Positions 13,356-31,784 of a DNA stretch of 52,801 nucleotides are shown here, one piece after another. This stretch comes from an uncultured Gemmatimonadales bacterium (GTDB taxonomy: Bacteria; Gemmatimonadota; Gemmatimonadetes; JACCXV01; JAHWKZ01): the NCBI GenBank assembly GCA_947259315.1, contig CAMYLR010000020.1, positions 1-52,801 of the forward strand, read 5' to 3'. The translations under genes and the position numbers were made by a program. The stretch's first letter is position 1; each line of letters starts with the position of its first letter. The notes below the pieces were generated by a model. That model was not told the DNA's origin. It made no database searches and saw nothing but the letters and a program-made list of their open reading frames with translations.

Positions 13356-14447
13356 TTACTGTGTTGGATTTGCTGTGTAGCCGAGGATCGTCAACACGAT
13401 GATGTACGCGATGGCAGCGATACCGAGCCAGATAAACAACCGCTCGCGCTGACCGCGAATGCTGGGCCGATCGAGAAACGGGACGAGCAGCAACAGCACA
13501 CCCGCGATGCCGAACGCGAACACGCCTACAGCTTCGCCTTCCATAAAGAGTATGTGCGCCGGCAGGTACTTGAGGGACTGGAACATGAACATGAAGTACC
13601 ACTCGGGCTTGATACCGACAGGTGCAGGCTGGAACGGATCGGCCTTGACGCCGAGCTCGGCTGGGAAGAGCGCCGCCAGGCTGGCTAGAATCGCCAATGC
13701 TGTCAGCCAACCGATCAGGTCACGCAACAGGAAGTTGGGGAAGAACGGCATCGCGCGCGCTCCCTGCTCACCAGCGTTGACACTATCGGGGGTGCTCATG
13801 CCGTGCTTCTGAACCAAGAACAGGTGAACCGCCAGGAAGACGCCGGCCGCGGCCGGAAGTAAGGCCACGTGGATCGCATAGAACCGCGTCAGCGTCGCCC
13901 CGGAGACGTCCGGGCCACCGCGAAGGAGGCTCAGCATGAACGTCCCGACGATCGGCACCACGCCGATGATCTCAGTCCCGACGCGGGTCGCGAAATAGGC
14001 CAGCTCGTTCCAGGGCAGCAAGTAACCGGTGAAACCAAAGGTGATCGACAACCCGAGCAGGGCGATCCCCGAGATCCACGTGATCTCGCGCGGCGGACGG
14101 TACGCCTTGAGGAGCAGCACGCTGAATAGATGGATGAACACTGTCAGGATCATGAGGTTGGCGGCCCACGCGTGGATCGATCGGATCAGCCACCCGAACT
14201 CCACCTCCGCCATCAAGAACTGGATCGACTCGTACGCTTCCTCGGCGCTCGGTCGATAGTAGAACAACAGCAGCACGCCGGTAGCGACCTGGACCATGAA
14301 GAGGAAGAGCGTCATCCCTCCCAGGTAGTACCAGATCGTATGCCGATGAACCGGAACGTCTTTCTTTGCGGCGATCTTCTGGACGTACGAAAGGCCCAGC
14401 CGAGCGTCCAGCCACGTCCACAGGTCACCGAGCCAGCGCCGATCCAT
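13356..14447 (-). CDS. qcrB: Cytochrome b of a bc/b6f-type complex (b6 and subunit IV fused), canonical
   Basis: Quinol-oxidising membrane subunit with two b haems. The start at 14447 lies two bases after the Rieske stop; the frame is open further upstream but only as overlap. Haem ligands H92/H106 and H193/H208 have the 14- and 15-residue spacings seen in the family. G-Y-L-L-P-W follows the first helices, and the Qo-site P-E-W-Y is intact at 281-284, in the part corresponding to subunit IV. 363 residues with about eight helices. With the adjacent intact Rieske protein it should form a working bifurcating complex. A c1 or f subunit is not seen; the nonaheme cytochrome just upstream may take its place. 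Confidence 0.93.
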
Positions 14448-14449
14448 CC

Positions 14450-14905
14450 CTAGGTGCCCTTGCTCACGACGATCTGATCGGCCAACTCGTTGACGACGAA
14501 CTGTTCCAACGGGCGTGGGGGTGGACCTGAGATGTTGATGCCATTCAGGTCGAAGTGACCGTTGTGACACGCGCACCAGATATGACCGATGTCCTCACGG
14601 TACTGGACGGTACAGTTGAGATGCGTGCAGGTAGCTTCGAACGCGCGCAGCTCTCCTGCTGGGGTGCGTACGAGAATCCCGGCTTTGCTGCCGAACTTGA
14701 AGATCTTGGCCGTGTTGGGCGGGACTTCTTCGGGACCGAACGGCAACCGAACCGTTGTCGCCGCGGATTCAGCGGCTTCCGGCGGAATAAGGTAGCGGCT
14801 AACCGGGAAACCTGTCGCCAACAGGAGCCCTCCGACGCTGGTACCCAACAGCCAGTTTAGAAATTTCCGGCGCGATGGCTCCGGCGACTTTGCTTCATCG
14901 ATCAT
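14450..14905 (-). CDS. qcrA: Rieske [2Fe-2S] protein, intact cluster site
   Basis: Electron carrier from quinol to cytochrome c in a bc-type complex. 151 residues. Tat-like N-terminus [11 protein letters not shown] with a hydrophobic anchor, then the Rieske fold. Cluster box I is C93-T-H95-L-N-C98 and box II C111-A-C113-H114-N-G, so both Cys and both His ligands and the disulfide pair are present; 12 residues separate the boxes. Box II has A and N where P and G are more common. The gene is read from the minus strand just before cytochrome b (two-base gap) and after the nonaheme cytochrome (14-base gap). Confidence 0.94.
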
Positions 14906-14919
14906 GTGCGACCCCCTGT

Positions 14920-16182
14920 CTAAGCACCGTGCTCGATCTCCCGGATCTTCATGACCAACCCTATGATGAGCGCGACGATAATGACGACCGAAGCCACCAA
15001 TCCGAGGCGCCGGAAACGGAGGTCGGCCAGCGCCTCCCGTCCCCGCGACTGAGCTTCGACCGCGATCTCGAGCCCGGCTTCCGTCTCCGTGGTGACAGCG
15101 TCAACATCGAACGAGTGGACGGTCGCCCGAACCTTGATCAACGCATCCTCCGCACCGTTTAGCTCGAACAGCGCCTGGCTAACTTCCATCCCCGCGTTCT
15201 CCGCCCGCAGCAGGAGCGCATGTGCTTCTTCTGTCGTCATGCGCAGCGAGTCGATCGCGCTTCGGAAAGCGACTGCGGTTTGACCACCGGGATCCTCGTC
15301 GGTGTGGCACCGGGCACAGACCGACCCTTCCCCGAGCCCCAGCATATCGTCGTTGGCCGGATGAACATCGTGGTTGTTATGACACGTGGCGCAACCCGGA
15401 CTCCCCAACAGAGCGAAGACCCTCGAGTGCCGGCTCTCGTTGAAGAGATCCGCCATCATGGCGTGACATTGGCCACAAACATTCCCGACCCATGAGACGC
15501 CGGGTGGAGCGGCCCCATGGTTGCCATGACAATCGTTACACGTTGGCGCCGACAAATCGCCTCCGTCGGTGATCATTTGCCAGTGAACGCTGGTTTGATA
15601 ATCGTCCAACTGGTTGGTCGGGAGCCTGTACGGCTCCATGCGCGTCGAGTCTGCGTGACAATCGCCGCACATCTCGGCGACGTTGAGAGGATGGACGGTC
15701 GACCTCGGATCCGACGCCGCTTTGATCGAGTGGGATTGGTGACAGTCGGTGCACGTCGCGACGTTGGGGTCGTCGTTCTCGCGCAAAGCTTGGCCGTGTG
15801 CCGAGGTCTCGTACTCCGCGACTTGATCGACCCGAAGCGCGGGGTTGAAGCGCTTCATGAACTCCGCATTGGAATGGCATCGGCCGCAGAGCGCGGGAAT
15901 CTGCTGTCGTTCGGGGGTGCCGATGTACCCCTTGTCAGGGTCCATCGCCGCTGGTCCGACCACCGTCGCATCGCCGCCGTGACACGCAATGCACCGGAAG
16001 CCTTCGGCCGCGTGAACGTCTTCGGCGTACAGTGTCGCCGGGTCCGCAAGCCGTCCCGCCGGGAGGGCACGGTGACACGTCAGACAAGTGTCTTGCTGTT
16101 CCTGTGCGAGCGCCGAATCCGCCTGTCCGACTGTCATGGCGATGCACGCGAGTATCACGGCGGCTGAGAACCGGCGCCTCAC
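14920..16182 (-). CDS. Nonaheme c-type cytochrome with C-terminal membrane anchor
   Basis: 420 residues with a Sec signal (cleavage probably after A-L-A-Q) and nine CXXCH motifs between about residues 33 and 290. A helical linker and one hydrophobic helix (V-A-S-V-V-I-I-V-A-L-I-I-G-L-V-M) follow near the C-terminus, placing the haem domain in the periplasm. The ATG overlaps the stop of the preceding tetraheme gene by 4 bp. It is a paralogue in architecture of the nonaheme protein at 27183-28424: same haem number, same G-T-P-[ED]-[RK] motif after haem 2, same helical linker and anchor. Both lie beside a cytochrome b / Rieske module, so a role as the electron acceptor of these complexes is likely but inferred. 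Confidence 0.92.
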   Translation of the reverse strand: MRRRFSAAVILACIAMTVGQADSALAQEQQDTCLTCHRALPAGRLADPATLYAEDVHAAEGFRCIACHGGDATVVGPAAMDPDKGYIGTPERQQIPALCGRCHSNAEFMKRFNPALRVDQVAEYETSAHGQALRENDDPNVATCTDCHQSHSIKAASDPRSTVHPLNVAEMCGDCHADSTRMEPYRLPTNQLDDYQTSVHWQMITDGGDLSAPTCNDCHGNHGAAPPGVSWVGNVCGQCHAMMADLFNESRHSRVFALLGSPGCATCHNNHDVHPANDDMLGLGEGSVCARCHTDEDPGGQTAVAFRSAIDSLRMTTEEAHALLLRAENAGMEVSQALFELNGAEDALIKVRATVHSFDVDAVTTETEAGLEIAVEAQSRGREALADLRFRRLGLVASVVIIVALIIGLVMKIREIEHGA

Positions 16183-17371: not shown

Positions 17372-18760
17372 TCAATCCAGCTGCGAGGCGAAGTGGCAGA
17401 TCGCACATGACATCTCGCTCCGGTCGGCAACACGATCGGGATCGAAATCCGGACCATGCGGGTTGATCCTCCACCCGTTTTTCGCTGAGTGACAGCGCAA
17501 ACAAGAGGTTTGTTGATGGCACGTCACGCAAGCCTCCATATTCTGACGTGCGGCCCGTCCGTGACCGATCAGCCACGAGTCGGTCGCGTCGTGATAAGCG
17601 GCGCCGCTTCGGCCTCCCTGCGCAAACCCAATCCCCTCGTGACAATCGCGACAAAACGCTTCACTCGAGTGACACGTCGAGCACTCGCTCTCCGTGGCGA
17701 ACGCCTCGGCGCCGTGGCGGGCGACGAAGTTAACCGGATGGAAGCCGGGACTCGACGGACCATCATGACAATCCGCGCAATACGTTTCGGTGTGACACGT
17801 ACTGCAGTTCGGGATCCCGGCGACCGCCGCCGAACGGTGTTGGGTCTTGAAATCCGGGGTGTGACCCGGCGGACCGGTGGCAGCAAACATCACACCCTGC
17901 GGCCCATCCGATGTTGGCACCGGCAGCTCGCGAATGACGACCGGTCCCGCATCCCCGTGGCACGTCTCACAACTCGGTTGGGCGTGACAGTTCGCGCAAG
18001 TGGCGATCGCCTCGTTGGCCGGGGCTCCGTGCGTCTCGTTCCAATCGAGCCGGCCGTGGCTCGCGGGCTTGGGCCACCGTCCAGGCCGATCCGCGGTCAA
18101 CGATGCGACGCGCTCGTCCCGTGGCAAATCCTGGATCGCGCTGATCTGGTCAGCGTTCAGATGGCAGCGTTGACAGCTGTCGCGAGTGTGGCAGACTGCA
18201 CACCGCGTCAGGTCTTCCGCTGCACCCGAGGCGTGCGTCGAAAGGAAGCCAGCGACTTCGTGATCGCTCGGCTGTGGGAACAACGCGATCTGATCCACCG
18301 TCAGTGTAGTCGCCTCGCCCAGTGACTGGTGGCACTTGGAGCACGTCACCCCGGCTGCCTGATGCTCCTCCGCGCCGGGTGCGTGGCACGTGAGACACGA
18401 CGGCAGGTTCGCCCGTTGGATCTCCATCGGTGCCGCACCATCCGGCATCTCGTGACACAGCGCGCATGGTGCCGGCGGGTGCTCAGCGTGAGAGAAGTTC
18501 ACGTTGCTCGCCGGTGGCGAGGGGCCGGCCCAATCGACCTCAGGCTGCACCGTTCCGTTGTGACAACCGGCGCATGTCTCAGGGGTTACTGAGTAGACAG
18601 CGGTCGTGTCGCCGCTGGTCACGCCGGAATGGCAGCCTTCACAGCTGGGAAACAAGCCGGCATGCTTGGCGTGCGGGAAGCGGTCAGGCTGTGGAACCGA
18701 AAACAGCGCGCCGCCCCCGATCCCGAGGACCGCAACAAGGAGAAGTGCACTCTTTTTCAT
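17372..18760 (-). CDS. Hexadecaheme (16-heme) periplasmic c-type cytochrome
   Basis: 462 residues, Sec signal at the N-terminus, sixteen CXXCH motifs and no second membrane helix. Five of them come as close pairs, CXXCH-x4/5-CXXCH (for example C-A-V-C-H-T-R-D-S-C-Q-R-C-H), the doubled-CXXCH arrangement. Many extra histidines lie ahead of the motifs (F-S-H-A-E-H, F-P-H-A-K-H) and can be sixth ligands. It overlaps the upstream beta-barrel gene by 4 bp, so the two are translationally coupled. By analogy with porin-cytochrome conduits, where a periplasmic multihaem protein plugs a barrel, it may be the plug; this is inference. It would be large compared with MtrA-type decahaem plugs. Confidence 0.92.
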   Translation of the reverse strand: MKKSALLLVAVLGIGGGALFSVPQPDRFPHAKHAGLFPSCEGCHSGVTSGDTTAVYSVTPETCAGCHNGTVQPEVDWAGPSPPASNVNFSHAEHPPAPCALCHEMPDGAAPMEIQRANLPSCLTCHAPGAEEHQAAGVTCSKCHQSLGEATTLTVDQIALFPQPSDHEVAGFLSTHASGAAEDLTRCAVCHTRDSCQRCHLNADQISAIQDLPRDERVASLTADRPGRWPKPASHGRLDWNETHGAPANEAIATCANCHAQPSCETCHGDAGPVVIRELPVPTSDGPQGVMFAATGPPGHTPDFKTQHRSAAVAGIPNCSTCHTETYCADCHDGPSSPGFHPVNFVARHGAEAFATESECSTCHSSEAFCRDCHEGIGFAQGGRSGAAYHDATDSWLIGHGRAARQNMEACVTCHQQTSCLRCHSAKNGWRINPHGPDFDPDRVADRSEMSCAICHFASQLD

Positions 18761-20211
18761 CGGTAGCCTCCTTCCCCACCGCCTATGTTACTTCCAAAAC
18801 GATAGGCGAGGCCTATGTGGCCGCGTGTCTGGGTCCAGTCAGAAACTCGCGCCCGATCGAACGAGAGGCTATAGCCGCTCAGACTTCCGGTGAGTGAAAA
18901 GTCTCCGATTCGCCATGCGCCTTCAACACCACCTCCGGACGTGACCTGCTCGCCGAGCCGGAACTCACTGAACGTCTGAGTCGACGAGCCGCGAGCGGCG
19001 AGATACGTGCCCGGTGCGAACTCGTAGCCGACCGTCAGATCGCCGCCGTATCGCGCGGCGCCAGAGCCGCGTTCGGCACGATAGATCCCGTCGGCGAACC
19101 ATCCCCTGTGCTCGAACCGTGCGCGGCCGTGGGCCCGCCACCCGTCTTCCTCGAAGCCCAGGAACTCGGCCCCGGCGTCGGTTTCTTCGTAGCTCCTGTA
19201 CGCACCTCCACCCTCGAGGTTGAGCATCGTTCCCGGCACGCTCCACAGGACCGTCCCACCGCCTTCAGTGTAACCGACCGGCATGAAGGCACCCCAGATC
19301 GTCCAAAGCTCGAAGTATGGTTCGTAGTGACGCGCGTAGCCGGCTACCCGCACGCCCGCGGCGATCGGCGCGCTGGCCCGCAGCTGAAGCTCGTTGAACT
19401 CGTCGTACGCAAAGTCATAGTCGGCCGAGAAATCCACCGTGACCCGATCGACCAACGCCCGCGCGTCGAACGCCATCCGTTCGGTGTAGAGCGCGGCCCG
19501 ATCGGTGCGCATCTCGCGCTGGTACGTGAAGGTCCCGGAAACGGTTTGTCCCAATCGCGCGTTGACGTCGAACCCGGCTATCCGAGCGCGTTTGTCGGGC
19601 GCGAAATCGTCGGCGTCCTCTAGCAGATCACCGTCACGCGTGGCGTTTAGACCACGCGCTAGACCCCAGCCCCAGAACGCTTCGACCCGCACCGGTTCCA
19701 GACCACGCCACAACACCGACCCACCGTCGAAGTTGTAGTAGCCCAGGCCCGACGTTCGAGCGATCCGACCGCCACGAAAACGAAAGTCCGCGCGGTCGTA
19801 GGTGAGGTAGGCGGTAACCGCGTCGAGCTCCTGGCTGCTGCGCGGCCAGAAACTGTCGGTCCCGTAGCGCCCACGCAGATGGACGTTCGCTGATAGACCG
19901 CGAATCCCGGGCCAAGCGATCAGGCTGAGATCTTGGGTGACGACCGAGATCGATTCCTCTTCGTCTACTGAAGCGAACCAACGGCAGAACTCCCCCGGTA
20001 TGCAGCTCACGATCGTCCCGTCGTCGAGCACGCGACGAATGCCGTCGCCAGCCACCACTCCTTCGGGGAGGCTGTCGCGTTCCAGACCGCGCAGTTCGAG
20101 GAAGCTTCCGGCGACTCGAAACTCGCCGCGATACCCCTGGGCCATGAGGCATTCGGGACCCAGCAGCACCGCCAGGGCGAGGGCAACCCCTGCCAACCAG
20201 TGAACTTTCAT
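18757..20211 (-). CDS. Outer-membrane beta-barrel protein of the cytochrome operon
   Basis: 484 residues. Sec signal ending near A-Q-G, then strands of alternating aromatic and polar residues with Tyr/Trp/Arg and acidic turns (for example F-R-G-G-R-I-A-R-T-S, G-Y-E-F-A-P-G-T-Y-L-A-A-R-G), to a last strand G-H-I-G-L-A-Y-R-F-G. The C-terminus adds a short Gly-rich tail rather than ending on the usual aromatic residue. There is no homology I can name. Tight coupling to the 16-heme gene suggests a porin-like sheath for electron transfer. Ribosome site AGGAGAGG directly before the ATG. Only two cysteines occur in the mature part (I-V-S-C-I-P-G-E-F-C-R), so it binds no haem c itself. Confidence 0.82.
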   Translation of the reverse strand: MKVHWLAGVALALAVLLGPECLMAQGYRGEFRVAGSFLELRGLERDSLPEGVVAGDGIRRVLDDGTIVSCIPGEFCRWFASVDEEESISVVTQDLSLIAWPGIRGLSANVHLRGRYGTDSFWPRSSQELDAVTAYLTYDRADFRFRGGRIARTSGLGYYNFDGGSVLWRGLEPVRVEAFWGWGLARGLNATRDGDLLEDADDFAPDKRARIAGFDVNARLGQTVSGTFTYQREMRTDRAALYTERMAFDARALVDRVTVDFSADYDFAYDEFNELQLRASAPIAAGVRVAGYARHYEPYFELWTIWGAFMPVGYTEGGGTVLWSVPGTMLNLEGGGAYRSYEETDAGAEFLGFEEDGWRAHGRARFEHRGWFADGIYRAERGSGAARYGGDLTVGYEFAPGTYLAARGSSTQTFSEFRLGEQVTSGGGVEGAWRIGDFSLTGSLSGYSLSFDRARVSDWTQTRGHIGLAYRFGSNIGGGEGGYR

Positions 20212-20220: not shown

Positions 20221-22998
20221 CTAGCGGTAACCGAACAGCATTGTAAGAACGATTAGAAAGATCAGCGTCAGCCCGACCCCGAGAGCGAAGAAACCGAAGA
20301 TCTTGAATCCCCGCTCGACCTTTTCGGGGTATGGATCGACCAGCCGCTCCTCCAGCTTACCTGTAGCTACGAGCTCTTCATACTCCTTCGGTTTGTCGTG
20401 CTTTAGCTCATCGATCGAGACACGTCCAGTGAAGATGACCGGGTCCATCGGGAACTTGTCCAACCGAAAGTGCGTGTTGAAAAAGTGTACGGTGAAGATG
20501 AATGCCACCGCCAGCAGAGCTTCATCGCTGTGGATGATCGTCGCGATGTTGATCGATTTGCCTGGCAGAACGTAGGTGAACAACTCGGGGAACCATAGGA
20601 TCAGACCCGATATCCCGATCACTATCATGCCCCAGAAGACCGCGAAGTAGTCGAACTTCTCCCAGTACGTGTACCGCCCGTACCGTGGCCGTGGCCCGAA
20701 CCCGAGAAACCACTTGATCGACCCGATGAGCTCGGTAAGGTCGTTTCGGTTGAACAACATGGAGTCAGCGCCAAAGATGAGCTGCCGCCAACTCCTGCCC
20801 GAGCGCTCTTTTTGGCGTCTCAAGTCCCACAGATGAACTACGAAGATCCCTATGAGGACGATCGCTCCGATGCGGTGCAGAACCCCCGTAGTGACAAAGC
20901 CACCGATCATCGACGCCGTGAATTGGGCCCATCCGGTGTAGGAAAACTTTAGCACCATCCCTGTGATCGCGAGCGTAAAGAAGCTCAGCAACATGACCAT
21001 GTGGAGCATGCGCTGGAAGTAAGTGAACCGCCGATAGACTTTGCCATCTCTCGCTGGCTTCGGACGTTTCCACATGCCGGGGGTACGCCATAGCCGATAC
21101 ATCCATGCCAGTACGTGAAACATCGCGAACGTCAACGTGCCGACGAGCAGCGTCGTCATCGCCCAGAAGGTCCAGAATAGGAACGGGTACTTGTCCGCGT
21201 CGTGGTGAGTCGCGTGCGTGAGGTAGCCAGCGAATCGGCGGTGCGCGCCCTCATGGCATTGACTGCACGTCTCGACGATGTTGCTTCGGCTCAGCATCGA
21301 CCCGAGATCCTCGATCGGCAAGATGTTGTGCGTGCCGTGGCAGTCGTAGCACTTCGCCGCACCTGCATCTCCCAGACGAGACACCTTGCCGTGGTAAGTC
21401 TCGAAGAACGTTTCTGACTCGTCGATATGGCACCGCCCACATTGATCCATCATCAGCAGACGGAAGTCGGCTCGGTCCGTTCGGCTGATCGTGTGTGAGG
21501 TGTGACAATCCTTGCAGGTCGGAGGTTGCTGCTCCGAATCCGTTACCTCTACGGTTGCGTGAACACTGTTCTCGAACTCCTCCTGAATCCCGTGGTGACA
21601 CGTGCCGCACGTGTCGGGGATGTTGTCCGAGTGAACTGTCGATGTCGGGTCATCGGCGGGCTGCTCGCCGTGGGCGGTGTGACAGTTGGTGCACATAGCG
21701 GTCACGACAAGACCGCTCTCCAGCAACCCCTTTCCGTGGGTGCTCATCTCGTAGCTCTGAAGAATGTCTGGATCATCGATACCGATTCGCACCGCCGCCG
21801 CTTCTCCCTGGCGATGACACTGCGCACAGAGCTCGGGGACGTTGCGTGGAAACGTCGGCGACGCGGGTTGCGACTTGTCTTGCGTGGCGTGCTTGGCGTG
21901 ACAGTCCAGACAAACCGGTGCGTCGGGATCGCCGCGCGCCGCCAACGTTCCGTGGACGCTCGAATCGTACTGCCCGACCTGTTCGGCGTGGCAGACGCCG
22001 CAATCGACGTCTGAGACCACCGTTTCACACGGCCGGCTCAGCGATGTCGTGACCTCGGTGTGGCATTGAGCGCAGGCAGTCCCCGAATGGTCGGTGGCGT
22101 TGTACGTCTGCTCGTCCACGTAGAGCGAGATCGTCTGCCCGTTCTTCTCCATCGCCAGCTCGGTGTCGCCGTGACAGGCCAGACAATCCGCGTTGGCCGA
22201 GCCGGCGGCATAGAAAACGCGTCGGACCTTGTGGGGCGAGTGACAATCCGGACACGCCGGGATCTTGTCCGGTTCCGTCCTCCAGAGATGGCCCTCGATC
22301 ACCTGACGGTGAACCTGCTCGATCTGCGCGTGGCATCGGGTACACATCCGGGACACGTTGTCCTCGTGGATGCTCGATCGCCGGTCGGTGTGGGGCAGGA
22401 TCCTGTGTGCGGTGTGACAGGAAGTACAGACAGCGGTCACCGTAAGACCTTGCCGGAACAACCCCTCGCCGTGCATCGACTGCGAGTAGTTCTCGAGGAT
22501 CCTCTCCTCCGGGATATCTCGCATGCGCGAGACGGGCGTGCCCTCGTGGTGACACTCACCGCAGAGGTACGGGATGTTCATGACGCCCGTCGGCGATCCT
22601 GGCGTCGTGCTCCGTTGCATGTCGTGACGCCCGTGACAATCGACACAGCTCGGCGCCAGCGGATCCCCTCTCGCGGCCGCTTGCCCATGAAGCGACGAGT
22701 CGTGCTGCGACACCTGACGGCCGTGGCAGCTGGAGCAGTTCGCCGCGGCTCGCTCTTCGGGGTGTGGAAACGCCATCCCCTGATGGCAAGCGACGCACTG
22801 CACTTCGGTCGCTCCGTGAACCGACCTTTCGTACACCCGGCGATTGACGACCAGGCGAGCGCCGTCGTTTCGTGAGGCGAACATCGCCGCGTTCTCGTGA
22901 CATGCGAGACAGGTGGCGTTCTCTTGGGCCGACAGCGTCGTGGCTGTGCCCAGCGTGGCGACGCCGAACATAAACGCGAGGGCTACCACGACGCGCAT
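20221..22998 (-). CDS. 19-heme cytochrome c fused to a formate-dehydrogenase-gamma-like cytochrome b (CbcL-like architecture)
   Basis: 925 residues from ATG 22998, which has a GGAGGT ribosome site and starts a Sec signal. Nineteen CXXCH motifs lie in residues 30-580, then about six membrane helices (600-925) with histidines in Q-R-M-L-H, V-L-H-R-I, V-V-H-L-W and I-I-H-S-D-E-A-L-L that fit b-haem ligation. The c part is an internal duplication: residues 30-223 and 272-468 each hold seven haems in the same order, with shared Q-V-x-Q-x-D-S-S-x-H-G and T-A-x-C-T-x-C-H-T-A-H. The b part matches the separate cytochrome b at 23001-23861. The fusion recalls Geobacter CbcL, a quinol-to-periplasm oxidoreductase, but with about twice its haems. 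Likely an inner-membrane quinol oxidase. Confidence 0.93.
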   Translation of the reverse strand: MRVVVALAFMFGVATLGTATTLSAQENATCLACHENAAMFASRNDGARLVVNRRVYERSVHGATEVQCVACHQGMAFPHPEERAAANCSSCHGRQVSQHDSSLHGQAAARGDPLAPSCVDCHGRHDMQRSTTPGSPTGVMNIPYLCGECHHEGTPVSRMRDIPEERILENYSQSMHGEGLFRQGLTVTAVCTSCHTAHRILPHTDRRSSIHEDNVSRMCTRCHAQIEQVHRQVIEGHLWRTEPDKIPACPDCHSPHKVRRVFYAAGSANADCLACHGDTELAMEKNGQTISLYVDEQTYNATDHSGTACAQCHTEVTTSLSRPCETVVSDVDCGVCHAEQVGQYDSSVHGTLAARGDPDAPVCLDCHAKHATQDKSQPASPTFPRNVPELCAQCHRQGEAAAVRIGIDDPDILQSYEMSTHGKGLLESGLVVTAMCTNCHTAHGEQPADDPTSTVHSDNIPDTCGTCHHGIQEEFENSVHATVEVTDSEQQPPTCKDCHTSHTISRTDRADFRLLMMDQCGRCHIDESETFFETYHGKVSRLGDAGAAKCYDCHGTHNILPIEDLGSMLSRSNIVETCSQCHEGAHRRFAGYLTHATHHDADKYPFLFWTFWAMTTLLVGTLTFAMFHVLAWMYRLWRTPGMWKRPKPARDGKVYRRFTYFQRMLHMVMLLSFFTLAITGMVLKFSYTGWAQFTASMIGGFVTTGVLHRIGAIVLIGIFVVHLWDLRRQKERSGRSWRQLIFGADSMLFNRNDLTELIGSIKWFLGFGPRPRYGRYTYWEKFDYFAVFWGMIVIGISGLILWFPELFTYVLPGKSINIATIIHSDEALLAVAFIFTVHFFNTHFRLDKFPMDPVIFTGRVSIDELKHDKPKEYEELVATGKLEERLVDPYPEKVERGFKIFGFFALGVGLTLIFLIVLTMLFGYR

Positions 22999-23000
22999 CG

Positions 23001-23861
23001 CTACCTCCATCCCCCCTGGATCAGGGCCCAGATGATGAGCCCGATCAACAGGATGCCGAGGCTGAGAGCGATCAACCCGAGCGTGACCGACCACAGGTAG
23101 GCGGCTCGAGACGGCGGCGGGGCGATCAACTCTCCGAGCCGTCCCTCCCGACTCAACCGCTCGTACTGCAGCGGGTGTTCCTCTTTCATGTAATCCAGCG
23201 TCGCACGGCCGGTGAACATGACGACATCCACCGGGAACTTCTCAGGACGGAGGTTCACGTTGAAGAAGTGAATCGTGAAGATGATGCCAGTCGCGAGCAG
23301 CGCCTCGATGCCGTGGATGATCGTCGCCACGTTGAACATCCAACCCGGCAGAACCTTCGAGAAGAACACCGGGAACCACAGGACCAAGCCCGAGCCGCCG
23401 ATCACAGTGACCCCCCAGAACTCGCCCCAGTAGTCGAGCTTGTCCATGTAGTTGAATCGGTCGAACTGGGGTCGTGGACCCTTCCCGGCAAACCACTTGA
23501 ACGTGTCCCGGATGTCCTGGAGGTCCCTGGGCTGTCCAACCATCGAATCGGGACCCCAGAAGAAGCGCTTCTTGTTGGTGCTCTTGGCGATTCGGTACGT
23601 CAGATGACCGATGTGGATGAAGAAGTACCCAAAGGTGATCACGGCACAGATACGGTGAATGAACCCCGCCGCTTGAAACCCGCCGACCATTCGGATGAGC
23701 GTTCTCGCCCATGGCATGTGCGAATAGAGCAGCGGCGTGCCGGTAATCACGAGCCCGAAGAACGACACGATCACCATCGCGTGGAGAACCCGCTCGATCC
23801 CCGAGAACCGCCAGATGTAGGGCCCCGCTCCGCGATCAGAGGACGCGAGCTTACGTCCCAT
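23001..23861 (-). CDS. Formate-dehydrogenase-gamma/HydC-like cytochrome b
   Basis: 286 residues from ATG 23861, which has a GAGGGA ribosome site and overlaps the 11-heme gene by 11 bp; a TTG at 23885 is a poorer alternative. Membrane diheme-b protein with histidines in E-R-V-L-H-A-M, F-I-H-R-I, F-F-I-H-I-G-H and [10 protein letters not shown]. The motif F-P-x-D-x-V-x-F-T-G-R near the last cytosolic loop is shared with the b domain of the neighbouring 19-heme fusion. Together with the 11-heme cytochrome it should form a two-subunit quinol:cytochrome c oxidoreductase, the split version of the fused protein and similar in layout to Geobacter CbcBA. Its stop lies two bases before the next start. 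Confidence 0.92.
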
Positions 23862-25140
23862 GGCCAGTCCCTCGCGCCCGTTCAATCGTCACTCGAATCA
23901 GCCAAAACAGTGAGTGCAACCCAAAGAACGTCCATACGCTGACCAGCAGCGTCGTCATGAAGAGCCAGCTCCAGAACAAAACCGGGTATCTTTCCCGGTC
24001 GCTCGCGTCACCGTGAGCGTAGTAGCGGACGAAGCTCTGATTCGCCTCGGGGTGACACCTTGCGCACGTCTCCACCAGGTTCAACGGATGAACGCTCGAC
24101 TCGGGATCCGTGGCCGGGCGCATGTTGTGCGGCGTGTGACAGTCGCTGCACTTGGCGGTGAGTTCAAAACCGAGTGCCGTTACCTGCCCGTGATAGGTGC
24201 TGAAGTACGTCTCGTAGACGTCCTCGTGACACTTGCCGCACTCCTCGACGACACCCACAAACCACCTGGGCTCGTCCGCTTCGACGATGCTATGGGCGGA
24301 ATGACAATCGACGCAGGCCGGAGCCTCGTGTCCGGTCGGCCCGCGTAAGTGCTCGCGGTAGGCTGCGCCATGTGCCGACCCCTCCTCGTACGTCTCGAGG
24401 ATACCGACATGACAATCGCCACACGTCTTCACGACGTTGGCCCGGTTGACCGATGACTCAGGCGAACTAGCCGGCAGCACGCGGTGGGATTCATGACAGT
24501 CGTTGCAAGTTGCCGAGAGCGCGAGGCCGGCTCTTTCGAGCGCGGCGCCGTGAACGGTCTCGTGATACTGCTCGACCGCGACCCGGGCTTGGGCCTCCTC
24601 GGGAGAAGAGAAGTACGTGCCGATGATGCTCGGATCGGCGTGACAGCGGCCACACATCGTCGCCACGTTGAGCGGGTAGGTCGGCGAGCGGCGGTCGTCT
24701 ATCGAGTACACCTCGTGCACGCCATGACAACCCGCGCAGGTCGGTGCATCGCCGTCCTCGATCACATCGAGCGCGTGAATCGAGACTTCCCAATCGGTCT
24801 GCTCTGACTCGTGACATGTCCCGCAGCCCACCGCGACTTGTGGTCCGTGCGGGTAGCCCATGGCGGGACCGGGATGACAGTCCACGCACTTGAGTTGGCT
24901 ATGCACGGTGTCCAGCAGAAGAGAGTCCGGCACGAGCAACGCTGCCTGTTCTTCGGCCGTTTCTTTGCCAACGAGAAAACGAGGATCGCCGTGGCACGCC
25001 TCACAAGTCACGATCGGTGATTCCTGGTTCTCGACCTGAGCGGCGACCGTCGACGCGTTACCGACCGCGAGACCAAATACGAACACCACGGGGAGCAGGG
25101 TTCGCACGATTCTCGCTGGTCCTCGTTTGCGCTCACGCAT
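23851..25140 (-). CDS. 11-heme c-type cytochrome with C-terminal membrane anchor
   Basis: 429 residues from ATG 25140; the open frame is longer upstream but lacks a signal. The Sec signal (L-L-P-V-V-F-V-F-G-L-A-V, ending V-A-A-Q) is followed by eleven CXXCH motifs. The first seven match in spacing the seven-haem repeat unit of the 19-heme protein, and the last four match that protein's final four, including the closing S/T-x-C-x-x-C-H-x-x-A/E and L-F-W-x-x-x-x-M-T-T-L-L-V membrane helix. So it equals the 19-heme protein without one repeat. The C-terminal helix anchors it beside the cytochrome b encoded directly downstream with an 11-bp overlap. Confidence 0.92.
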   Translation of the reverse strand: MRERKRGPARIVRTLLPVVFVFGLAVGNASTVAAQVENQESPIVTCEACHGDPRFLVGKETAEEQAALLVPDSLLLDTVHSQLKCVDCHPGPAMGYPHGPQVAVGCGTCHESEQTDWEVSIHALDVIEDGDAPTCAGCHGVHEVYSIDDRRSPTYPLNVATMCGRCHADPSIIGTYFSSPEEAQARVAVEQYHETVHGAALERAGLALSATCNDCHESHRVLPASSPESSVNRANVVKTCGDCHVGILETYEEGSAHGAAYREHLRGPTGHEAPACVDCHSAHSIVEADEPRWFVGVVEECGKCHEDVYETYFSTYHGQVTALGFELTAKCSDCHTPHNMRPATDPESSVHPLNLVETCARCHPEANQSFVRYYAHGDASDRERYPVLFWSWLFMTTLLVSVWTFFGLHSLFWLIRVTIERARGTGHGT

Positions 25141-25174
25141 GGGTCGCCCTTCAGCGGTACGCTTCAACCTCCCG

Positions 25175-27175
25175 TCAACTGGTCTCCTCACGCGCCCCGG
25201 CCAAGGCCGGAATCTGGTGGCACTGAGTGCACTGTAGCGGCGCGTTGTGCTCGATCCGATCGGTGTGACAAACGGTGCAGACCTGCCGACTCCATTCGCC
25301 GACGCTCGATATCTCGTCCCCGTGACAGACCGCGCACTGGCCGTGCATAGCCGGCGTGTGTTTCTCGATCGTCCCCTGCTGATGACAACCGAGACAGGTC
25401 GCTTCGGGCTGATGGTGCTGTTCGTGGCACGTCGTACAATCGAGATCGCTTGCGCCCATCGCGGGCGGGGTGTGACATGTAGCGCAGGCGAAACCCGCAC
25501 CGCGATGGACGTCGTGCGAAAAATTGCCGGTCGGATGTGCGATTACCGACGACGGAGCTCCACCCGGCCCGGAGTGGCAACGGGCACAGTTCATCGGCCG
25601 GATCTGCGGATGGTGACACGTGTTGCATGTTTCTCGTGAGTCGATCGTCGTACCCCCGTGTTCATCCAGGGATGTGTGGCAATCGGCGCAACCCAACCCC
25701 GCGGTAGTGACGTGGGGCCGGTGATCGAACCGCGCACCTTGGAACTGCACCTGCAGATCCTCGGCTCCCAGGTGGCAGCGCAGACAGACGTTTCTCCTGA
25801 TCCGGGTCCCGAGATCGACGTTGTCGACCGAGTAGGGGAGCCCGCCGGATTCGATCGCCTCACGCACCAGATCAACAGCCGACGCCAGCAACTCGTCGGC
25901 ATAGGCGATGTTGTGGGCGCCCTTGCCGATGCGAACGAACTCGACGTTCTCGCTCGCCAAGCCGAGTAGGCTGTCGACGGTAGCGCGGGTGCGGACCGGA
26001 CTGGAGCTGGCTCTTCTCTGCGCTCCGGCAACGACCGCGCCGACTCGACTGACGCGTTCTTCCATCTCGGTTTGCCACGACGGCAGGATGTTGGCGTAGC
26101 GGATGCCGTGACACGACAAACACGCCGCCTCGCCAGCCTCCTGAACCTGATCGTGGCCTTCCATCTCGCTCGGCAGCCCGTGGCACCCCTGGCACGAGAC
26201 ACGAGCCAGGTACATGTAGCTCGGCATGTTCTCGGTCGCGTGACCACCGGTGCCTGCGTACATACGCCGCTGCAAATCGTGAACCCCCTGATGGCAGCTC
26301 GCACAGTCGAGGTCGAAGGTCGACGCGAGCGAAGTGACGCGGTGCTCGATCCCCATGTGACACTGGGCGCACTCGATGTTGTGATCGGCGAGGTGGGTGC
26401 GGTGCACGAAATCAACGTTCTCGTATTGATCGATCCGTTCGGGCTCGTTGTGACACGTGAAGCAACGGGCTTGATTGGCCTCCCCCGACCCGCTCGTCAC
26501 CTCTTCATGACAACCCACGCAAGAGGTGAGCTCTTCGACGTACCGGGGATGGTCAACCACAAAGCCGACATCGGAGACCAAGCGGGGGGGATCGACGTGG
26601 CAGCCGGTGCATCCGGCGATCGGCTCCCCCAGCGGCTGATCCTTGAAATGGCACAGGTAACACGTATCCGCGGTTACCGCGACGTGATCGCCCTGGACGA
26701 TCTGAGAATGACATGCCGTGCAGCGCAACTGCTTTCCGCGACGCAACTCCCCGAGATGTTGTGCGTGGTTGAAGCTGATCCCCCGATAGTCGAGCTCCGA
26801 TTCCAGTTTTCGCTCGACGTGGCACCCCGAGCGCAGGCAGGAAGCGTCCTCGATCTCCGCCCAAGGCTTCATGCCGTACGTACCGGTGACGTACTTCACG
26901 ACCTGATTGGCGGCCTGGAACTTCCCCATCGCTTCGGCTTTGACACCCGGCGCGTAGTGGCACTCGATGCAAGCCACGTCGTTGTGCGATGACGTGACCC
27001 ACGAATCGTAGTACGGCTCCATGATGTGGCAGTTGAGACAGAAGCTCGGCTGAGCGCTGTACTCGACGAACCCGACGGCCCCGACGGCGATGACGATCAC
27101 CGCCAGAATCGAAACTTGAATGGCGATTCTCATCGGTCGTGAGAAGCGCGCGAGCAGGTTGTAGAGGGTTCGCAT
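25175..27175 (-). CDS. NapC/NirT-like membrane-anchored cytochrome with 21 CXXCH and one CX4CH motif
   Basis: 666 residues. An uncleaved N-terminal helix (I-L-A-V-I-V-I-A-V-G-A-V-G-F) is followed by the NapC/NrfH-type start C46-L-N-C-H-I-M-E-P-Y-Y-x-x-W-x-x-S-S-H and a second haem, C-I-E-C-H. A wide-spaced C113-L-R-S-G-C-H119 comes third, then nineteen more CXXCH motifs, so up to 22 c haems. A Ser/Arg-rich haem-free linker at about residues 375-455 splits the haem groups. NapC-type anchors oxidise menaquinol, and Geobacter ImcH is a related quinol oxidase with far fewer haems. This suggests a quinol-oxidising anchor fused to a long periplasmic wire, perhaps reaching the outer membrane. Neighbours overlap or are within 34 bp. 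Confidence 0.92.
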   Translation of the reverse strand: MRTLYNLLARFSRPMRIAIQVSILAVIVIAVGAVGFVEYSAQPSFCLNCHIMEPYYDSWVTSSHNDVACIECHYAPGVKAEAMGKFQAANQVVKYVTGTYGMKPWAEIEDASCLRSGCHVERKLESELDYRGISFNHAQHLGELRRGKQLRCTACHSQIVQGDHVAVTADTCYLCHFKDQPLGEPIAGCTGCHVDPPRLVSDVGFVVDHPRYVEELTSCVGCHEEVTSGSGEANQARCFTCHNEPERIDQYENVDFVHRTHLADHNIECAQCHMGIEHRVTSLASTFDLDCASCHQGVHDLQRRMYAGTGGHATENMPSYMYLARVSCQGCHGLPSEMEGHDQVQEAGEAACLSCHGIRYANILPSWQTEMEERVSRVGAVVAGAQRRASSSPVRTRATVDSLLGLASENVEFVRIGKGAHNIAYADELLASAVDLVREAIESGGLPYSVDNVDLGTRIRRNVCLRCHLGAEDLQVQFQGARFDHRPHVTTAGLGCADCHTSLDEHGGTTIDSRETCNTCHHPQIRPMNCARCHSGPGGAPSSVIAHPTGNFSHDVHRGAGFACATCHTPPAMGASDLDCTTCHEQHHQPEATCLGCHQQGTIEKHTPAMHGQCAVCHGDEISSVGEWSRQVCTVCHTDRIEHNAPLQCTQCHQIPALAGAREETS

Positions 27176-27182: not shown

Positions 27183-28424
27183 TTACTCCTTCAATCGCCG
27201 CAGTTTGAACCAACCCATTACGATCGCCGACAGTGTGAGAAACCACACCGGGATCAGCAGGAGCTTGTGCTCCCACGTTCGCTCAGCACTGCCCTCCGCT
27301 GTGGCTCGAATGTCCCGCGAGATCGACCCCACCCGCCGGCTCAGGTCTCCGACCCGTTCGACGTCCAGCCCGTGCTGGAACTCGGCGATCTGGAGGTAGT
27401 CTGTAAGCGCCGTCTGATACCGGAACCGGAGATCGCTGACCTGCCAGCCGGCGGCGACCAGCTCCTCGATCGCTTCGTCGGCTGCGTGCAGATCTCTCTC
27501 GGCGTCGACGATCAACTCCTCGGCTTCCACGCCGAGCTGCGCCGCGCGACTGTCGGGATCGTGGCACTCGACGCAAGTCTCGGCGACCGCATCCGGCGCA
27601 ACGCGCTCCGTCTCGTGGTTGCTGTGACACGCAGTGCATCCGGGCAGGTCACCGGCGCGGGCGGCCGCGCCGTGAGGACCCGCGTCGAACGCCTTCCGCA
27701 CGAGCACGTGACACTGGCCACACACGTTCGCGATCTCGGTAACCTGCGGGGGCATAGCGGCATGGGAGCCATGACAACCCACGCAGCTCGGTGACGCGAA
27801 GTTCTTGCGTTCGAACAGGCCGACGCCGTGGGCGCTGGCGCGGTACAGGTCGAACTGATCCGTCGAGAGACCGTACTTCGCCATCAGACTCTCGTCCTGA
27901 TGACAACCCGCGCATGTGCCAGAGATATTCGTCGGGTGGACGCGGCTGCGAGCGTTATCGGGGGTCAGGATCGTGTGTGCATCGTGGCAGCTCGTGCACG
28001 TCGGCGCGTCGGTGTTGCGTTCCCCGAGCAGCAGTTGGCCGTGGCGGCTGGTGCGAAACTCGGCCACTTGGCCGACTTGGAGGCCGTACTGCCGCATCCG
28101 ATCGGGGTCTGAGTGGCACGAACCGCAAAGCTGAACGATACCGATCTTGTCTGGTGTTCCCACGTAGTCGCCCGTGTGAGCCGCGGCGGTCTCCAAGGCT
28201 GCGGGATCACCACCGTGGCAATCATGGCACGCGATGCCGCGCTCGGAGTGGATACCCTCTACAAACGCCCGGCGCATGTCGGCATGACAAACGACGCAGC
28301 CGTAGACTGGGTCGGCTTGGACTGCCTGCAGCTGAGCGCTTTGGCCGGTGGCTGCGTAGCCGCCTCGTGGGCCACCGACAACAGCGACGATGGCTACCAT
28401 CGCGGTGAGCGCGCCACTCGTCAT
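27183..28424 (-). CDS. Nonaheme c-type cytochrome with C-terminal anchor, partner of the divergent cytochrome b
   Basis: 413 residues, Sec signal ending in G-Y-A-A-T, nine CXXCH motifs, a helical stretch (residues about 300-375) and a terminal helix (L-L-L-I-P-V-W-F-L-T-L-S-A-I-V-M-G-W). ATG start overlaps the cytochrome b stop by 4 bp, so the two are coupled. Same architecture as the nonaheme protein at 14920-16182. The second motif is C-H-D-C-H, giving an extra His beside the haem. As the attached Rieske-like protein lacks its cluster, this cytochrome is the obvious electron acceptor for the b haems; that is inference. Confidence 0.91.
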   Translation of the reverse strand: MTSGALTAMVAIVAVVGGPRGGYAATGQSAQLQAVQADPVYGCVVCHADMRRAFVEGIHSERGIACHDCHGGDPAALETAAAHTGDYVGTPDKIGIVQLCGSCHSDPDRMRQYGLQVGQVAEFRTSRHGQLLLGERNTDAPTCTSCHDAHTILTPDNARSRVHPTNISGTCAGCHQDESLMAKYGLSTDQFDLYRASAHGVGLFERKNFASPSCVGCHGSHAAMPPQVTEIANVCGQCHVLVRKAFDAGPHGAAARAGDLPGCTACHSNHETERVAPDAVAETCVECHDPDSRAAQLGVEAEELIVDAERDLHAADEAIEELVAAGWQVSDLRFRYQTALTDYLQIAEFQHGLDVERVGDLSRRVGSISRDIRATAEGSAERTWEHKLLLIPVWFLTLSAIVMGWFKLRRLKE

Positions 28425-29686
28425 TGAGATCCCCCGCTCTCGGCTGGTCCTGGCTGCACCGGACTCGGGCCGAGCTCGCGTAGCGGCGAGCCCGCCTCCG
28501 GCGGCTCACCGACCTCAGCCGGAGTTACCGACCGGACGTCCGGCGCGGCGAATCGGAGCTGGTGTCCGACCAACCAAAGAACCAAGAACCCGGCGAAAAA
28601 GACGATCCCGAGCACGATTACCGGTCGGTGACGCCGCTCTGGGTGGCGGTCAAACAACGGGATGAGCGCCATCGCTAACCCGAGGAGCGCAAAGAGCGTG
28701 ATCCCCCACGGGCCGAAGAACCGCACCATCGCGAGTGTCACGTCTATCACCACCCACGTTGACACGAGCTCGCTCGGGGGCGCGACCGAAGAAGCGGGCT
28801 CGCCGATCGGCCGCGGGAACAGCGTCGCCAAGGTGATCACAACGGCGAGGACGACGACCGAAACCAGGAATAACCGCAGCAAGTGATGCGGAAAGAAGGG
28901 ATCGCCTAGCGCCTCGCTTCCGGTGGCGCCTCGTGGCGGCGCGACGCCGTGCGTGCGGATCATCCGAAAGTGGAAGAGAAGCAGGGCGAAGGCGATCCAC
29001 GGCAGGATGATCACGTGGATCGCAAAGAAGCGGCTCAGCGTGGCACCTGACACGAACGCGTCGCCGGTCAACGCCGTCACGATTACACCGCCTAGCACAG
29101 GCAGTTTCTCGGCGGTGTCCAAAAACTCGGTCACCGTCCAGTACGCCCACTGGTCCCACGGCAGGAGGTACCCCGATGCGCCAAACGCCAGCACGACGAA
29201 AAGCAGCAACAGACCGATCAGCCAGCTCGTCTCGCGCGGCGGCTTGTACGCGCCGTCGAAGAAGACTCGCGCCATATGGGCGAGCACGACGATCACGATC
29301 AAGGTCGCCGACCAGACGTGGACGTCGCGGACCAACCAGCCAAAGGTGACACCGGTCACGATGTGCTGGATCGAGCCGTAGGCTTCCCCCGACGAAGGGC
29401 GATAGTGGAGCGACAGCAGCACGCCGGTAACGACCAGGACCATGAACAGCAGGTACGCGATGCCACCCAACGCGTGACGCCACCCGACGTGCGCCGGCAG
29501 GCGGCGTGCCAGCGCTTTGCGCAACGCTTCATCGATCGGCAGGCTGCGATCGATAGGCCCGTAGAGGAGGCCCAAGAACCGCGGAGCGGTGAGGAAGCTG
29601 GCGTCGGTGCTGGCCTTGAGGTCAGCCCGGAAGCGGCGACGCCAGCGAGAGACCACCTCCCGCGTGCGATCGATCACGCTAGCCAT
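28421..29686 (-). CDS. Cytochrome b (bc/b6f type) lacking the PEWY motif
   Basis: 421 residues with a longer N-terminus and a Pro/Gly-rich C-terminal tail. All four b-haem histidines are kept: H123/H137 and H224/H239, with the same 14/15 spacing as the canonical paralogue at 13356-14447. G-Y-L-L-P-W and K-P-P-R-E are also present. The Qo-site P-E-W-Y is not: at the equivalent place (about 303-313) the protein reads P-P-S-E-L-V-S-T-W-V-V. The Glu and Tyr needed for quinol oxidation at Qo are therefore absent or moved. Overlaps the Rieske-like gene by 8 bp and the nonaheme gene by 4 bp. Probably a non-bifurcating b subunit passing electrons to the nonaheme protein. Confidence 0.9.
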   Translation of the reverse strand: MASVIDRTREVVSRWRRRFRADLKASTDASFLTAPRFLGLLYGPIDRSLPIDEALRKALARRLPAHVGWRHALGGIAYLLFMVLVVTGVLLSLHYRPSSGEAYGSIQHIVTGVTFGWLVRDVHVWSATLIVIVVLAHMARVFFDGAYKPPRETSWLIGLLLLFVVLAFGASGYLLPWDQWAYWTVTEFLDTAEKLPVLGGVIVTALTGDAFVSGATLSRFFAIHVIILPWIAFALLLFHFRMIRTHGVAPPRGATGSEALGDPFFPHHLLRLFLVSVVVLAVVITLATLFPRPIGEPASSVAPPSELVSTWVVIDVTLAMVRFFGPWGITLFALLGLAMALIPLFDRHPERRHRPVIVLGIVFFAGFLVLWLVGHQLRFAAPDVRSVTPAEVGEPPEAGSPLRELGPSPVQPGPAESGGSQ

Positions 29687-30164
29687 GGGTCAGGTAGACG
29701 ACGCCGTCTCGAACGAAAACCGAGTAGCGTCGTAACGATTGGGTCGTCAGGCCGGTGACGACGTTCCCACGCAGGTCGTAGACGATGTAGTTGCAGGGTG
29801 AGACGACGCGTTGCGACTCATCGTCCCAACGCAGGATGCATCCGTCAGTCGGCGAGGTGCCTTCGAGGGCGTAGTACTCGTCCTCGCCGCGGCGCACGAC
29901 GAGAATGACCTGCTCCCCCCAGTTCTGGACGCGACTTGTCCCAATACCAAAGGCGTCTTCGCTTGCGACGGGAATCGCCGACTGGACCTCGGGGATCGTC
30001 AGCGGACGGGTAGAGAAAACGTACAGCGTGCCGCCGAGAACCCAGCCGGTCACGATCAGCACACCGATCCCGACCAGCAGCAACTCCTCGAACCCGAGCC
30101 ATGGTTTCCGTCTCGGTTGTCGGGTCGCTGTGGAGTCGGTCTCGACTGCGGTCATGGTGCCCAT
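29679..30164 (-). CDS. Rieske-fold protein that has lost all [2Fe-2S] ligands
   Basis: 161 residues: charged N-terminus, one membrane helix (about 27-50), then a beta-rich domain. Aligned with the intact Rieske protein at 14450-14905, box I C-T-H-L-N-C becomes S104-P-T106-D-G-C109 and box II C-A-C-H becomes S122-P-C124-N125. Both boxes are 12 residues apart in both proteins. Thus the ligands changed Cys to Ser, His to Thr, Cys to Ser, His to Asn, while the two disulfide cysteines (109, 124) remain. The G-N-V-V and V-Y-L-T strands that close the Rieske fold are still visible. The reading frame is intact and coupled to cytochrome b, so it looks like a retained structural subunit and not a pseudogene. 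Confidence 0.8.
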   Translation of the reverse strand: MGTMTAVETDSTATRQPRRKPWLGFEELLLVGIGVLIVTGWVLGGTLYVFSTRPLTIPEVQSAIPVASEDAFGIGTSRVQNWGEQVILVVRRGEDEYYALEGTSPTDGCILRWDDESQRVVSPCNYIVYDLRGNVVTGLTTQSLRRYSVFVRDGVVYLTHG

Positions 30165-30275: not shown

Positions 30276-31784
30276 CTACCTCCCCACTCTGGCCTTCACC
30301 ATCTGTAGCTCCGCGTCCCAATCTACGACCCCCAGGCTGTTCATGACGCCGTACTCCTCTTCCACGACGTCGATGCTGGCGATCAGCAGCGCTTCCATCA
30401 AGAACGGGTTGTGAGCACTCGATCCGATGACACTGAAGGTACCGAAATCCTCGTTACCGAAGAGCGCCAATGCGTGATTGAAGAACGCCCCCTCAGCGAC
30501 CGTAAACGTCGGATTGGTGGGATCGATCTCCCCGCCTGGATCCTCGCCGTTCGGGTCAACTTCCTCGAGCAGCTCCTCCAGCTCGTCGGCCAGCCCCTGG
30601 ATCCGGGTCGACGCCGCCGTGAGCGCCGAGAACGCCGCCTGCTGGTCGCCGTGACAAGGGCCACCGGTGCACGACTCGTACGTGCGCGCCGGTGGAGCCA
30701 GGTCGCAATCGGTCTCGAACCCCTCCGGGATCCCGCTCGCATCCACGCACGGGATCGGCCGGAACAGGTGGCCCGTCGCGCTAAACGCGAAGCCACCTGT
30801 CGCCGCATCGGTGACGGTGAACTCCGACAGGTGGCACGTCGCGCACAGCTCCGGGTTGGCGTCGCTACCGTGCGAACCGCGGATCTGACCCAGTCCGATA
30901 TCGGCGCCCGGCGGGAACCAACCGGCCTCGCCGATCAGCAATGCTGACTCGGGGGAGTGTGGCTCCAACCCGTGTGACGAGTTGGGATCGGGAGCGGTCC
31001 GCCGATTGTGGCACTGTGAGCAGAGGTGCGTCTCGATCGACGTCGTATTGACCGGTAACCTGAGCTGGTGCTCGTTGTTGTCAGCGTGCGGGTCGTGGCA
31101 TACCACACACACCACCGCCAACGGTTCCGAGTCGAACTTCTCGGTGTAGTCGGCGTTCGAACCGAACCGCTCGATCGAGGTCTGCCCCCTATGACACGGC
31201 GCACACGACTCACGGGCGGCGGCGAAGCCGACCACCCCGGAATGCGGTGACGCCTCCCACTCTTCGACAAACGGGTGGTGGGTGCCCTGGTGGCACTCGC
31301 CACAACCGGTGTCGAGGTCCAACCCAACCGACGCTTGAGCAATTGGCTGGCTCGCGTCCGGGTTGTTGGCGTGCGCCTCACCCGGGCCGTGACAGTTCTC
31401 GCACTGCACGTCGTGATAGCGCGAGTCCTGGGTCGTCGCCCAGCCGCCGTCGGTCTCGGTGAGGTTGCCGTTTTGGCTCACCGCGTGGCAGTTCTCACAG
31501 AAGGGCTGCGCGCTGCCGCTACCGATCAACGATTGCCAAGCGTCCGCGTGAGCGGTGTCCTCCCACTCCGACTGGACTCCGATGTGGCAGTTACCACAGA
31601 CGGTTAGGTTAGCCGCTTCCTCGTCGTAACCTAAGAAGCCGACCGCCATTGCCGGTGGGTCTTCGAAGAACGGTCGTTCAACCTCCACGATCACCTCGTC
31701 CTCACACACCGACCCAAGCATCGAGCCGAGCAGGACGAGCGCCGCGGGGAGAACGAGGAGTCGTCTTACATCGATTCTTGTCAT
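30276..31784 (-). CDS. Exported nonaheme-type cytochrome (8 CXXCH plus one CX4CH), first gene of the array
   Basis: 502 residues with an N-terminal hydrophobic signal (L-L-V-L-P-A-A-L-V-L-L-G) near a cysteine (G-S-V-C27-E-D). Val at -1 is a poor lipobox, so lipidation is doubtful. Eight CXXCH motifs, from C-G-N-C-H to C-A-T-C-H, plus a late C-T-G-G-P-C-H near residue 371. W-E-x-T/S-x-H motifs after haems 1 and 4 recall cytochrome c554-like proteins. The last 120 residues are haem-free, acidic and helical, and may be a binding or oligomerisation domain. The gene has its own promoter with the CCCTAC direct repeats and is followed by a hairpin, so it may be expressed at a different level from the genes behind it. 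Surface or periplasmic electron carrier. Confidence 0.9.
   Translation of the reverse strand: MTRIDVRRLLVLPAALVLLGSMLGSVCEDEVIVEVERPFFEDPPAMAVGFLGYDEEAANLTVCGNCHIGVQSEWEDTAHADAWQSLIGSGSAQPFCENCHAVSQNGNLTETDGGWATTQDSRYHDVQCENCHGPGEAHANNPDASQPIAQASVGLDLDTGCGECHQGTHHPFVEEWEASPHSGVVGFAAARESCAPCHRGQTSIERFGSNADYTEKFDSEPLAVVCVVCHDPHADNNEHQLRLPVNTTSIETHLCSQCHNRRTAPDPNSSHGLEPHSPESALLIGEAGWFPPGADIGLGQIRGSHGSDANPELCATCHLSEFTVTDAATGGFAFSATGHLFRPIPCVDASGIPEGFETDCDLAPPARTYESCTGGPCHGDQQAAFSALTAASTRIQGLADELEELLEEVDPNGEDPGGEIDPTNPTFTVAEGAFFNHALALFGNEDFGTFSVIGSSAHNPFLMEALLIASIDVVEEEYGVMNSLGVVDWDAELQMVKARVGR

Follow-up and report, generated by a model that had tools for sequence, protein, structure and literature searches.

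A bc-type gene cluster without Rieske cluster ligands or the PEWY motif in a clade of Gemmatimonadota

Gene content of the respiratory cluster

The window, meaning the whole stretch of DNA that was analysed (52,801 nucleotides from an uncultured Gemmatimonadales bacterium), carries on its minus strand a long series of respiratory genes that begins at about 31.8 kb and ends at 13.4 kb. This series includes four core genes of a putative variant bc-type complex, which follow one another in the reading direction in the order listed here, the first two being called RieskeX and bX.

29679-30164, minus strand: RieskeX, a Rieske-fold protein (PF13806, E 3e-6; structure prediction) that has a transmembrane (TM) anchor at its N-terminus and no cluster ligands
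28421-29686, minus strand: bX, variant cytochrome b of the fused b6 plus subunit-IV type, 421 aa, four haem histidines present, PEWY absent
27183-28424, minus strand: nonahaem c cytochrome, third core subunit, with nine CXXCH motifs and a C-terminal TM helix
25175-27175, minus strand: fourth core gene, a NapC/NrfH-type N-terminus with a multihaem chain, 21 CXXCH motifs

Further genes of the series lie on both sides of this core.

30276-31784, minus strand: c554-like cytochrome, 8 CXXCH motifs, in relatives often upstream of RieskeX
23851-25500, minus strand: multihaem cytochrome, 11 CXXCH motifs, an adjoining gene in several relatives
23001-23885, minus strand: b561-type membrane cytochrome b (PF01292)
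20221-23094, minus strand: cytochrome with 19 CXXCH motifs and a fused membrane domain of the b561 type, an architecture like that of CbcL
18757-20211, minus strand: possible outer-membrane barrel, no family match

The CbcL-like fusion of 19 haem motifs and a b561 domain adjoins a split version of the same arrangement (23001-25500). At 17372-20211 of the window, a cytochrome with 16 CXXCH motifs stands beside the barrel-like protein, a pairing that may represent a porin-cytochrome conduit, and a class I-type protein with four CXXCH motifs sits between this cytochrome and the genes of an ordinary bc complex. A cytochrome of the MtrA-like type and a putative porin, both within the cluster, point to extracellular electron transfer.

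Variant cytochrome b

In comparison with Pfam, bX matches PF00033 (E 6.4e-48) and PF13631, not PF01292; the C-terminal model PF00032 gives no match, whereas it does match the ordinary cytochrome b of the window (E 6.8e-12). The predicted structure of bX, which is of moderate confidence, matches bc1 cytochromes b (Foldseek E 1e-13). Its best NCBIfam match is ExtP (NF040969), at 206.5 bits and thus under the curated cut-off of 290; ExtP and ExtQ are families that we take to be the b subunits of the Geobacter GSU2930-2937 complex.

The first-pass annotation, made from the letters of the window, had described a cytochrome b that keeps all its haem ligands and has exchanged its Qo motif, and both observations hold across the clade. 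The four histidines H123, H137, H224 and H239 are invariant in all 30 variant cytochromes b that were aligned. Residues 303-312 of bX read PPSELVSTWV, with STWV falling on the PEWY columns, and in these columns neither E nor Y is kept in any of the 30 variants, while W is kept in 28. A displaced PEWY-like motif, which the annotation had named as contrary evidence, was looked for and did not turn up, and the cytochrome b at all 32 variant loci of other genomes is devoid of PxWY.

28751-28762, minus strand: codons of S309-T310-W311-V312, aligned with PEWY (alignment columns)
29147-29149, minus strand: codon of W180 in the Qo-pocket loop, a Trp absent in sisters
29471-29473, minus strand: codon of A72, which aligns with the cysteine that attaches haem cN (Cys35 of cytochrome b6; alignment columns)

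Judged from the alignment, the Qo pocket of the variants is altered beyond PEWY, with residues that have turned bulky or charged. Three positions of the Qo loop and cd1 helix are changed, namely W180 (30/30), T184 (26/30) and E187 (24/30), and by comparison with well-studied bc1 sequences these presumably belong to the inhibitor-contact region. The haem-cN column likewise holds no cysteine in the variants (0/30; A in 25, S in three, M in two), whereas 10 of the 11 sister-group sequences have it. On the N-side, R244, equivalent to Arg207 of b6, is conserved in 30 of 30 variant cytochromes b.

Rieske-fold subunit without cluster ligands

The structure prediction for RieskeX, which is of high confidence (pLDDT of about 97 in the head), shows a TM anchor (helix 25-50) followed by a Rieske fold. 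The predicted fold matches known Rieske structures (VIA Z 16.3), the closest being the Rieske protein of Chlorobaculum. The two boxes that would normally carry the cluster ligands are changed as follows.

29838-29855, minus strand: box 1, SPTDGC in place of CTHLGC (wider context TSPTDGC), disulfide Cys109 kept
29790-29801, minus strand: box 2, SPCN in place of CPCH, disulfide Cys124 kept

The neighbouring Rieske protein had been called cluster-less by the first-pass annotation, which is borne out well beyond this one gene: none of the four ligands is present in any of the 32 RieskeX proteins compared, that of the window included, and the column count finds the two disulfide-type cysteines retained in all 32, whereas all six positions are intact in 54 of 54 other Rieske proteins. 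The Tat twin-arginine motif was found in 0 of 32 RieskeX proteins, as opposed to most other Rieske proteins, by a simple, loose RR pattern applied to ORFs with uncertain starts. Such a loss would be in line with export that is not preceded by cofactor insertion.

It is probable, as we infer from these sequences, that the Rieske fold has been retained as a cofactor-free structural subunit that covers the Qo side, now out of use, and keeps the cytochrome in place. It is very unlikely that RieskeX carries instead a new redox centre, whether a metal bound by Cys109, Cys124, Asp107 and Ser122 or a redox-active disulfide. The invariance of D107, C109, S122 and C124 among RieskeX proteins would fit such a centre; against it, these two cysteines are the ones that form the structural disulfide in ordinary Rieske proteins, and the other ligand positions vary freely.

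The ordinary bc complex of the same genome

A complete ordinary complex, consisting of a Rieske protein, a PEWY cytochrome b and a nonahaem cytochrome, lies 13 kb from the variant genes in the same cluster.

13356-14576, minus strand: cytochrome b of the ordinary type, PEWY present; at its start the ORF overlaps the Rieske gene, and translation probably begins more internally
14450-14905, minus strand: ordinary Rieske protein with CTHLNC/CACHNG and a Tat-like SRRKFL
14920-16182, minus strand: second nonahaem c cytochrome, with nine haem motifs, partner of the ordinary complex

Because of this neighbouring complex, the variant is regarded as an added complex and not as a product of decay, and the idea that it replaced the only bc complex is rejected for the genome of the window. 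An orthologue of the ordinary complex was found in 11 of 18 related genomes. The gene orders of the two complexes differ, the nonahaem gene coming first in the ordinary complex (13356-16182) and last in the variant. In one related genome (G129, 95% complete), the variant is the only cytochrome b found, and unless an assembly gap is responsible, this organism may manage with no bifurcating bc complex at all.

The genome of the window holds further genes of these families. A third cytochrome b-family gene (contig C9:17822-18856, equivalent to L007:1396-2430) is without PEWY, reads TKPPLPFLWLV at that place, and has c-type cytochrome genes beside it and no Rieske gene. On the same contig, an intact orphan Rieske gene (C9:48260-48721, L004:1321-1782) has no adjacent cytochrome b. 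Furthermore, three haem-copper oxidase genes were found in this genome, and a search for RuBisCO gave no match, results that do not favour one direction of electron flow through the variant over the other.

These intact copies, at 14450-14905 and on contig C9, lend some plausibility to the notion that a normal Rieske protein from elsewhere serves bX and that the complex still bifurcates, a notion that we hold to be even less probable than a new centre in RieskeX. PEWY and the Qo pocket are lost within bX itself, and RieskeX adjoins the variant cytochrome b wherever the contig reaches. An intact second Rieske gene forming the complex had been put forward beforehand as evidence that would speak against a non-bifurcating complex; an intact Rieske gene is indeed present in the cluster, but it lies beside a PEWY cytochrome b and a nonahaem protein of its own.

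Distribution, ancestry and selection

Among 298 genomes from this phylum, 18 further orthologues of 52-66% identity were recovered, after which identity drops to about 41% and below over most of the length. In a scan of 84,980 species genomes, which was seeded by the cytochrome b alignment and used two short peptide patterns, so that other variants may be missed, 32 loci of the variant kind were obtained, followed by cytochromes b from other phyla. The labels of the 32 loci are Gemmatimonadota, a Gemmatimonadota subgroup or uncultured bacteria, and nearly all of them come from metagenome-assembled genomes. Matches beyond these loci have PEWY or the split b6/IV form, in which the IV part, where read, has PEWY. 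RieskeX precedes the variant cytochrome b where the contig reaches, the nonahaem and NapC-type genes mostly come next, and the full order of four genes recurs in most loci whose contig is long enough.

Trees were built with IQ-TREE in fast mode and with FastTree. The variant cytochromes b are monophyletic (SH-aLRT 90) and group with split b6/IV forms (SH-aLRT 100) from Nitrospirae, Deltaproteobacteria and Poribacteria. The RieskeX clade has a support of 1.0 whether or not the motif columns are included, and nearest to it is an intact Rieske protein from Syntrophobacterales (support 0.63-0.74). On these sequence comparisons, the variant state is a fixed trait of one Gemmatimonadota clade that is sister to intact complexes of other phyla. 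In the sister locus L090, an intact Rieske gene is followed by b6, a IV subunit with PEWY, a nonahaem gene and an 11-haem NapC-type gene, matching the variant order; in L087, b6, IV (with PEWY), nonahaem and NapC-type genes occur in this order on a contig that begins at b6, the Rieske position being off the contig. The gene order of these two loci makes a bifurcating ancestor with this operon the simplest starting point.

The four core genes are under purifying selection, as dN/dS relative to an 83% identical locus (L038) is 0.22 for RieskeX, 0.12 for the cytochrome b, 0.11 for the nonahaem gene and 0.08 for the NapC-type gene. These values of 0.08-0.22, together with the identical state at 32 loci of other genomes with open frames, reduce the chance of a decaying pseudogene or an assembly error to practically nil. 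The loss of the cluster ligands and that of the Qo site had been proposed to be one and the same change, one that removes bifurcation between Rieske and Qo; this is now well supported, as both are fixed in a monophyletic clade with no intermediate seen. Judged from the sequences, the Rieske ligands and the Qo motif have been lost jointly, and with neither cluster ligands nor Qo motif present, standard bifurcation would presumably be unable to run.

Multihaem partners and possible alternative quinone sites

The nonahaem cytochrome that had been described as coupled to bX does possess nine CXXCH motifs, and it shows a further clade-specific feature where its TM helix enters the membrane.

27240-27275, minus strand: WEHKLLLIPVWF, motif specific to the clade, where the TM helix of the nonahaem subunit enters the membrane

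This motif, WE[HR]xLxxxPxWF (P-x-W-F in short), is present in 26 of 27 variant nonahaem proteins, the sole exception ending in masked sequence, and is absent from the ordinary complexes listed. It may mark another P-side quinone site, and together with the retention of both b haems it would be compatible with bifurcation without a Rieske protein, in which quinol bound at a re-sited P-side site between the cytochrome b and the nonahaem TM helix would deliver one electron straight to a c haem and its second electron to haem bL. This mechanism appears decidedly unlikely, since the motif has no acid at the position of the PEWY glutamate, tryptophan and proline are common at the interface where TM helices start, and the residues of the Qo pocket are now bulky or charged. 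The related claim that the nonahaem cytochrome, by means of its P-x-W-F helix, took over the work of the Rieske cluster, sending one electron to its c haems and the other to bL, is more doubtful by a small degree.

The NapC/NrfH-type protein contains an NrfH-like CLNCHIM motif. Its 21 CXXCH motifs are also found in most relatives of the clade, and the sisters from other phyla (L087 and L090) have 11. Since this motif occurs in the product of the fourth core gene, the NapC/NrfH-type domain might itself oxidise quinol, with bX and RieskeX serving mainly as a scaffold or as a side relay of the nonahaem protein. We consider this unlikely, as the invariance of both haem-ligand pairs and the strong purifying selection on the cytochrome b would be needless for a pure scaffold.

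A probable linear, non-bifurcating complex

The reading preferred here, with a probability of roughly 0.6, is that the variant connects a menaquinone site on the N-side with the chain of the nonahaem and 21-haem proteins without bifurcating electrons, the empty Rieske fold acting as a structural cap. A linear path between quinone and the nonahaem cytochrome had been suggested in the first-pass annotation, and it is the most likely one on present evidence. The ancestor would have been a menaquinol:multihaem-cytochrome complex of the Rieske/b type, whose bifurcating half, made up of Qo site and Rieske protein, was presumably dismantled in a single ancestor. What remained would be a transmembrane pair of b haems linking the N-side quinone site with c haems on the P-side. 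If the core proteins assemble as a single complex, electrons would travel one by one along a linear path that joins menaquinone, next to haem bH, with the nonahaem cytochrome, next to haem bL, and that continues to the 21-haem protein of the NapC type and to the cluster's proteins for extracellular electron transfer. RieskeX, held by its disulfide, would cap the old Qo side and anchor the cytochrome. Outward flow would spend membrane potential on exporting electrons toward low-potential acceptors, a role like that of CbcL and CbcBA, and inward flow would generate membrane potential and conserve energy. It counts against this linear reading that the P-x-W-F motif of the nonahaem TM helix may mark another P-side quinone site, that haem cN appears to be lost too and that the N-side site is judged from R244 only.

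Relation to known systems

In Geobacter, GSU2930-2937 encodes a conserved Rieske/b complex with 2-, 5-, 10- and 12-haem partners and an ordinary Rieske Fe-S protein (PMC2825233). The variant resembles this system, likened here by description, and the sister operons L069, L087 and L090 in the layout of Rieske, b6-type cytochrome b and multihaem genes, and it has the order of b, nonahaem and NapC genes in common with L087 and L090. Unlike the variant, the sisters tested carry PEWY, and those whose contig includes the Rieske gene also have its ligands intact.

Anammox bacteria contain Rieske/b complexes with multihaem subunits (Kustd1480-1485 and Kuste4569-4574), for which unusual energetics have been proposed (PMC12954380). 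Like the variant, these resemble b6f and have multihaem c subunits, which in anammox are hexa- or octahaem, in place of cytochrome f; unlike it, they retain both the Rieske cluster and haem cN, have been proposed to bifurcate, and have gained an NAD(P) oxidoreductase (PMC12954380). No NAD(P) oxidoreductase gene was seen among the core genes of the variant.

CbcL and CbcBA are inner-membrane quinone oxidoreductases of extracellular electron transfer that serve low-potential acceptors, and CbcBA has been proposed to run in reverse in syntrophs (PMC9129911, PMC10553843). As in these proteins of Geobacter and syntrophic sulfate reducers, membrane b haems would be joined to multihaem c domains in the variant, CbcL having two b and nine c haems and no Rieske protein. 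By description, the six-helix di-haem b domain of CbcL is set apart from the PF00033 bc-type cytochrome b and relic Rieske protein of the variant, which would be comparable to CbcL and CbcBA in function, not by descent.

Significance

It is usual to regard the Rieske cluster and PEWY site as the inseparable core of bc complexes. The variant has in common with canonical bc1 and b6f complexes the cytochrome b fold with its four histidines, the Rieske fold and a TM-anchored c cytochrome, and differs from them in being without the Rieske ligands, PEWY and the haem-cN cysteine. The open-access papers searched contain no description of a bc complex whose Rieske subunit is without ligands. The variant would represent a natural, selected and widespread complex from which both the Rieske cluster and PEWY have been removed while the rest is kept. 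It offers a test case for what the remaining parts of a bc complex do without bifurcation and for the survival of a Rieske protein as a structural subunit, and it bears on how Gemmatimonadota of soils and sediments connect their quinone pool with external electron donors or acceptors.
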